A stretch of DNA of 64,000 nucleotides from Mycetocola zhadangensis (GTDB lineage: Bacteria > Actinomycetota > Actinomycetes > Actinomycetales > Microbacteriaceae). Each line of letters starts with the position of its first letter. The stretch's first letter is position 1. The stretch is taken from NCBI RefSeq assembly GCF_003668565.1, contig NZ_RCWJ01000005.1, positions 186,001 to 250,000 on the forward strand, written 5' to 3'. Under the pieces are notes generated by a model. The model searched no databases and was not told the origin of the DNA. It saw nothing but the letters and a program-made list of their open reading frames with translations. The position numbers were made by a program, and so were the translations under genes. Positions 1-1,938 of this stretch are shown here, one piece after another.

Positions 1-37
1 GAAGCGGCACGGTGCCCGATACATCATTCACGGTCAT
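1..37 (-). CDS. N-terminal fragment of a gene running off the left edge
   Basis: Only the first twelve codons lie in the window. On the minus strand an ATG at 37-35 is preceded by AAAGAGG at 47-41, a good ribosome binding site with 3 nt spacing, and opens a frame reading MTVNDVSGTVPL without a stop up to the edge. The gene diverges from the CutC-ROK fusion, so the two may share the regulatory region 38-195. No family can be assigned from twelve residues. A partner in sugar uptake or a regulator would fit beside a ROK kinase, but that is a guess. Confidence 0.5.
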   Translation of the reverse strand, partial: MTVNDVSGTVPL

Positions 38-67: not shown

Positions 68-100
68 AGTTAGTCCAGTATTGCAGGAAGTTAGTCGAGT
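68..100. promoter_or_regulatory. Direct repeat AGTTAGTC, candidate operator
   Basis: AGTTAGTCCAGT (68-79) and AGTTAGTCGAGT (89-100) repeat 21 bp apart, that is on the same face of the helix. They lie in the divergent region between the truncated minus gene and the CutC-ROK gene. TTAGT-type half sites are known for some ROK-family repressors such as Bacillus XylR; linking that to this site is inference. Confidence 0.35.
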
Positions 101-195
101 TATACGTGTAAGAATCTGTTGTTGGTCGATCCCCTCCGGAACCAACCGAAATCGCAACGCGACGAACAGCGTGTGAGAAATGTGAAGGCGGCTTG

Positions 196-1938
196 ATGAC
201 CCAGCGAACCAGCACCAGGCGAGTCCTGACCGAGGTCTGCCTCGACGACCTCGACGGCGCACTCGCCGCGGACCGGGCTGGCGCTGACCGAATCGAGCTG
301 TGTGCGAACCTCGGCGAAGGAGGAACGACGCCGAGCATCGGCCTCATCACGTCGGTACTTCGGTCGGTCGAACGTGTCGGCGTGCAGGTCATCGTCCGCC
401 CCCGTGGCGGCGACTTCGTCTACAGTGACGACGAGATCGCCGTGATGTGTGCGGATCTTTCAGCGATAACGGATGCCACGGCGCACGCACGCACGCCCGT
501 CGGCGTTGTTCTCGGAGCGTTGACCGCGGCAGGCGAGGTGGACGTCCAGGCGATGCAGCGCCTCATTTCCGCAGCGGCTCCGCTCGCCGTCACCTTCCAC
601 AAGGCAATCGACGCAACAACCGACGTTCTCGCCGCGTTCGACACCCTCGGCGGCCTCGGAGTGGAACGTGTACTGACCTCGGGCGGACCCGGATCAGCGC
701 TCGACAATCTCGACACCCTCACTGAGCTGGTGCGCCGGTCGGACGCAGGCCGTGGCCCCGGAGTGCTCGTCGGCGGGTCGGTGCGGCCGGCAAATGTACG
801 CTCCATCGTCGACGCAACAGGCGCACACGAAGTGCACGCACGACTGCAACACCCATCACCGCGCGGCGACGGAACCCTGGGAACCAGTTCGAGCAGCGTC
901 GCCGAATTCCTTGCCGCGCTGGACACCCCGGCCCGTCCAGCCGAAACGGCAGCTGAAACGACAGACGAGCCCGCGGCTGTTGTCCCCACCACCGAGGTGG
1001 TCCTTGCCCTCGACATCGGAGGTACAAACCTCAAAGCCGCCATTGTCGACACGACAGGGCGCAGCATCGCCTTCCGTTCGATCAGCGCCGGGCAGACAGG
1101 CGCCGAGTCGCTCGAACGGATCGTTGCCCTGCTGTATGGGTTACAGACGTCAGCCGAACTCGCCGGGCACTCGGTCGTCGGCGCTGGCGTCGTCACGCCC
1201 GGCATGGTTGACGCGGCGAACGGCGTCGTCCGGTACGCCTCAAGCCTCGACTGGACGAACGTTCCCCTTCGTGCCCTTCTGGCCGACGCCCTCGGGGTCC
1301 CCGTCGAAATTGAACACGACGTGCGATCAAGTGGGCTCGCCGAGAGCCTGTTCGGCGCATCGGCCGGCGTGGAGAACTCGGTTCTCGTCGCGATCGGCAC
1401 CGGCGTGGCCGCGTCGATTCGCAGTGGCGGCCACGCCGTCGTTGGCGCGATCACCACAGCGGGCGAACTCGGCCATATCCCCGTCATCCCCGACGGAGAG
1501 GTGTGCTCGTGTGGGCAGCGCGGGTGCCTCGAGGTCTACCTGTCCGGCGCAGGGTTCGCCAGGCGTTACGCCGCGCTCGGTGGTAAAGACGGGCTGGATG
1601 CCGCAGAGATTGCGGCGCGCCTCGGCTCGGATCCGATTGCCGACCGTGTCTGGACAGAGGGAGTGCACGCATTCGCTCTCGGCCTGTCCTCGCTTACGCT
1701 GCTCGTCGACCCATCGATGATCGTCCTCGGCGGCGGAGTCTCGCGGGCGGGCGACGCCCTGCTCGACCCACTGCGGATTGCGTTAGGTGACCTCTTGGCC
1801 TGGCGCGACGCTCCTGAGATCCGCCTGTCCGAACTGGGCACATCCGGAGGGCGCATCGGCGCCGCCGTCCTGGCGTTCCGCGCCGCTGGACTTTCCGCTG
1901 TCCCCGACACGTGGTCGGTCGCTCATCTTCTCGCCTAG
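196..1938 (+). CDS. CutC / ROK sugar kinase fusion protein
   Basis: 580 residues from ATG 196, chosen over TTG 193 because GAAGG at 185-189 is spaced well. Residues 1-235 are a CutC TIM barrel (LTEVCLDDLDGA near the start, then ELCANLGEGGTTPS and VIVRPRGGDF). A linker rich in Ala, Glu and Pro (about 236-268) joins a ROK domain: phosphate-binding DIGGTNLK at 273, EHDV with the catalytic Asp, and the zinc-binding CSCGQRGC at 437. Both parts look full length and carry their motifs, so this is a real fusion rather than a frameshift. The ROK half should phosphorylate a hexose or amino sugar. CutC is named for copper homeostasis, but fusion to a kinase argues for a carbohydrate-related role in this case. 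Confidence 0.85.
   Translation: MTQRTSTRRVLTEVCLDDLDGALAADRAGADRIELCANLGEGGTTPSIGLITSVLRSVERVGVQVIVRPRGGDFVYSDDEIAVMCADLSAITDATAHARTPVGVVLGALTAAGEVDVQAMQRLISAAAPLAVTFHKAIDATTDVLAAFDTLGGLGVERVLTSGGPGSALDNLDTLTELVRRSDAGRGPGVLVGGSVRPANVRSIVDATGAHEVHARLQHPSPRGDGTLGTSSSSVAEFLAALDTPARPAETAAETTDEPAAVVPTTEVVLALDIGGTNLKAAIVDTTGRSIAFRSISAGQTGAESLERIVALLYGLQTSAELAGHSVVGAGVVTPGMVDAANGVVRYASSLDWTNVPLRALLADALGVPVEIEHDVRSSGLAESLFGASAGVENSVLVAIGTGVAASIRSGGHAVVGAITTAGELGHIPVIPDGEVCSCGQRGCLEVYLSGAGFARRYAALGGKDGLDAAEIAARLGSDPIADRVWTEGVHAFALGLSSLTLLVDPSMIVLGGGVSRAGDALLDPLRIALGDLLAWRDAPEIRLSELGTSGGRIGAAVLAFRAAGLSAVPDTWSVAHLLA

Follow-up and report, generated by a model that had tools for sequence, protein, structure and literature searches.

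The cutC-ROK fusion gene and its protein

The window, i.e., the whole 64,000-nucleotide stretch of Mycetocola zhadangensis DNA (G000:C5:186001-250000), begins inside a divergent regulator gene, which is followed by a single gene joining a CutC domain to a ROK sugar-kinase domain. The features are:

1..37, minus strand: 5' end of a ROK-family transcriptional regulator gene of 395 aa (G000:C5:184850-186037), the rest of which is outside the window
70..125, plus strand: promoter/operator-like block common to the operon promoters of relatives, recognised by invariant intergenic columns; putative function
185..191, plus strand: ribosome-binding site AAGGCGG; a similar leader precedes the first transporter gene in relatives
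196..1938, plus strand: CutC-ROK fusion gene, 580 aa, an uninterrupted single open reading frame (Pfam, full-length relatives)
226..840, plus strand: CutC domain (TIM barrel) with every conserved pocket residue kept (Pfam, model with mean pLDDT 97.1, alignments)
892..993, plus strand: linker rich in Ala, Thr and Glu, weakly conserved and of varying length between the conserved domains (alignment)
1003..1875, plus strand: ROK sugar-kinase domain (Pfam) with the alignment-read motifs DIGGT, HDVR, GTG, GELGH and CxCGQxGCLE

An earlier note had placed this gene at exactly these coordinates and had described two intact domains with a clear linker, a description that Pfam bears out by recovering a complete CutC (PF03932, residues 11-215, E 7e-59, 199.2 bits for a cut-off of 23.3) and a complete ROK domain (PF00480, residues 270-560, E 4e-56, above the cut-off) on either side of a linker at about residues 233-266. 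As start codon, the ATG at 196, with AAGGCGG at 185-191, is preferable to the TTG at 193. The closest solved chains by sequence are human and Shigella CutC for the first half, and glucokinases and ManNAc kinases for the ROK half. The latter carries the ATP motif and CxCGxxGCxE in the alignment, and scores under the cut-off of all the NCBIfam models among the matches listed. No further Pfam family, hence no helix-turn-helix (HTH), was detected in the fusion protein at E 0.01; the reading of the ROK half as a regulator was ruled out because no HTH was found.

The model of the CutC half superimposes on human CutC with a Z of 35.0 and an rmsd of 1.5 over 230 residues (Z 28-35 for the solved CutC chains). 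The fold falls among the phosphosugar barrels, TrpF included; among the matches listed, the nearest after CutC are MJ1099 (Z 21.4) and TrpF (Z 17.7). The substrate of TrpF is, as we take it, a glycosylamine, and its presence among the fold relatives of the model is counted in favour of a possible glycosylamine substrate for CutC. None of the best 50 structure matches listed is one that we recall as a glycosylamine hydrolase, which carries no evidential weight. Across 55 CutC sequences, the charged residues that are invariant or nearly so comprise two Glu, three Arg, a His, an Asp and a late His, and a Cys is conserved as well. The CutC of the window and those of its relatives, fused or unfused, have them all, save that the first ones are not covered by the gene calls of L033 and L041, which probably begin too far downstream. 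In strand 6, Thr-Ser is replaced by Ser-Ser in L039-L041 and by Thr-Ala in L036, L037 and L043, and the Gly-rich turn after strand 7 is retained. These conserved residues look like those of an enzyme. A Schiff-base aldolase is ruled out, because none of the Lys positions is invariant or nearly so in the 55 sequences.

Spread of the fusion and the operon of its relatives

The fusion is genuine and no sequencing artefact: it is found at full length in 11 of the 199 genomes of the same family, the window's own included, over six genera (G000, G149, G115, G043, G167, G110, G192, G007, G090, G153 and G185). The earlier note had held that a fusion unique to this strain would speak against it, and the family survey disposes of that objection. 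The ten other fusions are 57-71% identical to that of the window, and three genomes (G069, G143 and G178) carry CutC and ROK as separate adjoining genes, in the same order as in the fusion. Searching the whole order (347 genomes, E 1e-90) added four matches to that of the window itself, and each of the four concerned the ROK half. In the trees of both halves, the 11 fusions form one group as opposed to the unfused pairs (support 100/99). The CutC tree places the single CutC of L046 (G134) within the fused group; since it is nested among fusions, this suggests one later separation of the fused gene, i.e., an apparent fission. Today this CutC is a gene of its own, with an M81 gene and a Dpp-type importer in its vicinity. 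More generally, PF03932 is present in 54 of the 199 family genomes; in a sample of 296 genomes from the phylum it occurs in 36, of which six belong to the own family.

Around the fusions and the adjoining CutC and ROK genes, neighbourhoods were fetched, genes were called and clustered, and representatives were annotated, which leaves part of the genes in fused loci without annotation. ORF calling truncated genes in high-GC loci (the asparaginase of L033, the fusions of L033 and L041), and partner counts are therefore based on tblastn. The fullest gene order consists of a divergent ROK regulator, then an ABC ATPase, a family-3 binding protein and two permeases, i.e., an importer of the amino-acid type, followed by asparaginase II (PF06089), CutC-ROK and glucosamine-6-phosphate deaminase. 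For 7 of the 11 fusions, and for the three unfused pairs of the family, the gene immediately upstream on that strand is asparaginase II. Beyond the window, the ten other fused loci contain asparaginase II (seven) or an M81 gene (three), GlcNAc-Asn being the putative substrate of either. The three are L039-L041 (the g7 fusions), from which asparaginase II is absent and where the M81/MlrC gene comes after the deaminase. Of the 11 fusions, 7 have the deaminase nearby, and that of L034 exceeds the NCBIfam cut-off for glucosamine-6-phosphate deaminase (392.5 vs 326); in L042, the next gene encodes an amidohydrolase that shares 36% identity with an annotated NagA. In another family of the order, L270 and L271 show an unfused AsnII-CutC-ROK arrangement. 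L272 has AsnII-ROK with no CutC in the operon, the CutC of that genome lying on another contig with no tested partner near it except unspecific ABC ATPases; as the genome does have a CutC, we consider this case compatible and count it in favour. L273, also unfused and from the order, reads ROK-CutC-M81. Metal genes are absent among the annotated partner genes of fused loci. From its gene content, the operon of the relatives reads as a putative system for GlcNAc-asparagine breakdown.

The window locus keeps only a part of this arrangement. Its regulator is 75% identical to that of the relatives' operon, the L034 copy of which combines ROK and a winged HTH. When 10 of the 11 fused loci are compared (L035, nearly identical to L034, was left out), 21 of the 24 invariant intergenic columns fall in the block at 70..125; sigma-70 and terminator scans found nothing. 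Directly ahead of the fusion are the regulator, the promoter-like block and a leader containing the ribosome-binding site. The relatives' importer genes have no match in the window or in the preceding 16 kb, from which asparaginase II and M81 are absent too. The best matches in the own genome, both on other contigs, are 39% identical for the binding protein and 45% for the asparaginase, while the copies in the relatives' operons reach 68-99% and 67-97% identity with the nearest query. Within the genus, G149 has retained importer and asparaginase; an internal deletion of the operon would most simply account for the loss. With only the regulator, the promoter-like block and the fusion retained, the fusion would therefore draw on other sources of glycosylamine or GlcNAc. 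The window genome has three glucosamine-isomerase-family genes elsewhere. The missing genes and their distant best matches could also mean that the fusion is decaying in this strain and no longer has a role, a situation compatible with the other readings, and G002 and G086 give no CutC match, so that CutC is missing from two of four genomes sampled in this genus. The open reading frame is nevertheless intact, the conserved residues are kept and the regulator and promoter-like block are conserved, and we regard decay as improbable.

Partners of CutC in the family and in other phyla

Partners on the CutC strand were counted by tblastn (E 1e-10) for all 56 CutC loci of the family. Asparaginase II occurs within 90 bp of CutC in 10 loci and M81 accompanies CutC in 16 (15 within 2 kb, one at 5.7 kb); the two are mutually exclusive, no locus of the 56 having both. 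A deaminase is found without either in three loci within 36 bp and in two at 2.3 kb. Fifteen CutC genes lie in the ilvC/serA region, and the remaining 10 loci comprise seven without any tested partner, the window (fusion only), L046 (a ROK gene 1 kb away, a Dpp-type gene and an opposite-strand M81) and L118 (a NagA-like gene 4 kb away). Thus, 22 of the 56 loci have no amino-sugar partner, namely the 15 of ilvC/serA and the seven. Six ROK loci without CutC (L047-L052), a small control, contain neither asparaginase II nor M81.

The ilvC/serA loci are L083, L084, L086, L087, L090, L092-L094, L098, L100, L101, L103 and L108-L110; two small open reading frames without Pfam match (c10, c11) recur in several, and in L093, L094 and L098 sugar-type ABC genes, annotated only for L093, lie just upstream of CutC. 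In two distant groups, an alpha-L-fucosidase is found directly beside CutC (PF01120 in L095 and L188, by similarity in L088 and L089), fitting a core-fucosylated glycoasparagine.

The phylum sample includes 30 CutC-bearing genomes from outside the family, and 20 loci were fetched from 19 of them. M81 lies beside CutC in two of these 20 (L251, L259), and the other 18 have no tested partner within 2.5 kb; farther matches are a glycosylasparaginase-like fragment at about 7 kb (L247), PTS pieces at about 3 kb (L254) and MurQ at about 6.6 kb (L263).

In other phyla, the CutC half was found by tblastn in 67 plasmid records, of which 12 loci, picked for annotation and spread, were opened. Amino-sugar genes surround CutC in nine of the 12. 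In three Hymenobacter loci, a glycosylasparaginase gene overlaps CutC, and the other positive loci offer a ROK or BadF-type kinase, NagA, SIS, MurQ, GH20 or M81; the Parabacteroides, Enterococcus and Cetobacterium loci (three of the 12) have no sugar genes around CutC. The Hymenobacter enzyme matches a solved glycosylasparaginase at 4e-111 vs 3e-35 for isoaspartyl peptidase. Named genomes were then scanned with four Bacteroidota CutC queries, and the best 80 of 592 confirmed relatives were examined. In 38 of these best 80 of 592 loci, CutC is immediately preceded on its strand by a glycosylasparaginase-type gene, a figure that overstates the pairing rate because three of the four query rows are themselves glycosylasparaginase-adjacent, and in which related genomes are not independent. 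Among these best 80 of 592, the 38 pairs come from Bacteroidota, from Xanthomonadaceae and relatives, and from one Gemmatimonadetes MAG; the 42 loci without direct adjacency include six with less than 1.2 kb of upstream sequence, and in L145 and L202 the gene is about 1.5 kb upstream and on the other strand, respectively. An HDT motif, which we take to be a mark of glycosylasparaginases, is present in 38 of the 40 glycosylasparaginase-type matches of the best 80 of 592 loci, the other two being contig-end fragments.

Several Bacteroidales neighbours deserve mention on their own. A protein of about 880 aa with a transglutaminase core stands beside CutC in the three loci tested (L157:8737-11376, L160:8706-11381 and L178:8938-11604), and more CutC neighbours of similar length occur in Bacteroidales. 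Eukaryotic PNGase has the same transglutaminase core, and the protein is a peptide:N-glycanase candidate worth testing. In a Rikenellaceae MAG, an 804-aa open reading frame (L146:3160-5574) has a C-terminal CutC and first 560 residues without Pfam match, possibly another fusion or a mis-set start.

Other neighbours in Bacteroidales are a CusA/CzcA-type RND pump (L176:3568-6657) and a cation-efflux protein (L182:8704-9606). They would suit the traditional view, reflected in the family's name, that CutC is a copper protein and its fusion to a kinase incidental, as would the increased copper sensitivity after knock-down of worm and human CUTC stated in a passage of PMC11083455. However, the copper sensitivity of E. 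coli cutC is attributed, in a passage of PMC6538781, entirely to the loss of the sRNA MicL (with related passages in PMC8216713), and a passage of PMC11083455 describes human CUTC as binding Cu weakly and being an unlikely chaperone. The passages on CutC in these three sources give no reaction for it. Its conserved residues, moreover, look enzymatic, and we consider the copper view very unlikely.

A candidate role in glycosylasparagine breakdown

We propose that the fusion is a bifunctional enzyme of glycosylasparagine (GlcNAc-Asn) catabolism, its substrates and CutC reaction being read from the observed partner swaps, fusion clade, operon, conserved residues and promoter-like block. We put this proposal forward tentatively, a little short of an even balance; the glycosylasparagine pathway itself is more certain than the CutC reaction and in our opinion quite probable. 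In relatives, the amino-acid-type ABC importer would take up GlcNAc-Asn; asparaginase II (or M81, or glycosylasparaginase in other phyla) would cleave the amide to give Asp and 1-amino-GlcNAc; the CutC barrel would convert the latter to GlcNAc and ammonia; the ROK half would phosphorylate GlcNAc to GlcNAc-6-P; and NagA and NagB would lead from there to fructose-6-P. The operon genes (importer, amidase, CutC, kinase, deaminase) follow the order of these steps, and CutC is the only operon protein left without a step. Three unrelated amidohydrolase families pair with CutC, and we therefore infer that their product is the common factor. We know of no M81 enzyme that cleaves GlcNAc-Asn, and of no accepted reaction for CutC.

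In passages of PMC6960285 on lactobacilli, the 1-amino-GlcNAc produced by AsnA2 is called "not metabolizable" and is taken to decay non-enzymatically, a process said to be favoured by the drop in cytosolic pH of these bacteria, and the ROK kinase SugK is required in the pathway. A bacterium with a neutral cytosol would gain from an enzyme for this step.

The 22 family loci and the 18 Actinomycetota loci without partner, the three of 12 plasmid loci devoid of sugar genes and the metal-efflux neighbours count against our reading. Part of the evidence could also be accommodated by the same pathway with another reaction, CutC being an anomerase, epimerase or similar enzyme acting on GlcNAc, GlcN or their 6-phosphate before or after the kinase. 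In L111 and L113, the arrangement is PTS-NagB-CutC, which would supply a sugar phosphate and no free sugar, and fits a phosphorylated substrate better than free 1-amino-GlcNAc; the structural neighbours are mostly sugar-phosphate barrels, and a Gly-rich turn is kept in CutC after strand 7; and CutC also adjoins NagA/SIS or a BadF-type kinase where no asparaginase is present. The phosphosugar-barrel fold and the PTS-deaminase-CutC loci thus leave room for a 6-phosphorylated substrate or other reaction. Such a reaction would, however, leave the frequent amidohydrolase partner from three unrelated families unexplained, and we find it rather unlikely. The same genes might otherwise serve another amide-linked sugar, such as fructose-asparagine, a muropeptide or another glycopeptide: Dpp-type peptide importers occur with M81 and CutC, and MurQ lies near CutC in two alphaproteobacterial loci. 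Against this, the glucosamine-6-phosphate deaminase, the NagA-like gene and the true glycosylasparaginase indicate GlcNAc-Asn, fructose-asparagine being disfavoured because of the deaminase; we hold such substrates to be quite improbable.

Hydrolysis of 1-amino-GlcNAc remains our preferred reaction. The earlier note had suggested a carbohydrate role for CutC alongside the kinase, a direction upheld by the fusion, the unfused sisters and the neighbourhoods in several phyla; the chemistry that it had proposed (isomerase, epimerase or lyase, acting on what the kinase uses or makes) is not the best fit, because CutC is most commonly partnered by an amidohydrolase, which would set a glycosylamine free. 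The fusion, the unfused sisters and the swaps among three unrelated amidohydrolase families give CutC one concrete candidate substrate. Among the matches listed in the open-licence PMC literature, no title or abstract opening states a sugar role for CutC or a link to ROK, MlrC, muropeptides or glycosylasparaginase. If true, our reading would make CutC fill a catabolic step now regarded as spontaneous, and would raise the question of a role for human CUTC with glycosylamines from N-glycoprotein turnover. The wider claim, i.e., that CutC from bacteria to humans is a glycosylamine hydrolase freeing GlcNAc and that the CutC-paired M81/MlrC "peptidases" are a third kind of glycosylasparaginase, is possible but doubtful.

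The nearest known system is the alf-2 cluster of Lactobacillus casei for fucosyl-GlcNAc-Asn catabolism, which, in passages of PMC6960285, has in common with the relatives' operon an importer, a ROK kinase and a dedicated regulator. The alf-2 amidase releases 1-amino-GlcNAc and Asp (PMC6960285), and its counterpart in the relatives' operon is putative. According to the gene list stated in PMC6960285, alf-2 alone has an MFS permease, the Ntn-type AsnA2, a fucosidase and an aspartate decarboxylase, and lacks CutC, whereas the relatives' operon has an ABC importer, asparaginase II or M81, and a kinase-fused CutC. The window locus differs further from alf-2 in having no dedicated importer. In sequence, fold and conserved residues, the CutC half resembles the rest of its family (PF03932; solved for human, Shigella, Bacillus anthracis and Streptococcus), but it is fused to a kinase here, and lies in an amino-sugar operon in relatives. 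The ROK half shares with the ROK sugar kinases (glucokinase, ManNAc and GlcNAc kinases) what we take to be the ATP and zinc-type motifs and the catalytic Asp, with His-Asp where classical ROK kinases presumably have Asn-Asp. Finally, mammalian GNE (UDP-GlcNAc 2-epimerase/ManNAc kinase), the kinase half of which is among the sequence matches of the fusion's ROK half, likewise carries a sugar enzyme N-terminal to a ROK kinase, its N-terminal half being, as we take it, unrelated to CutC.
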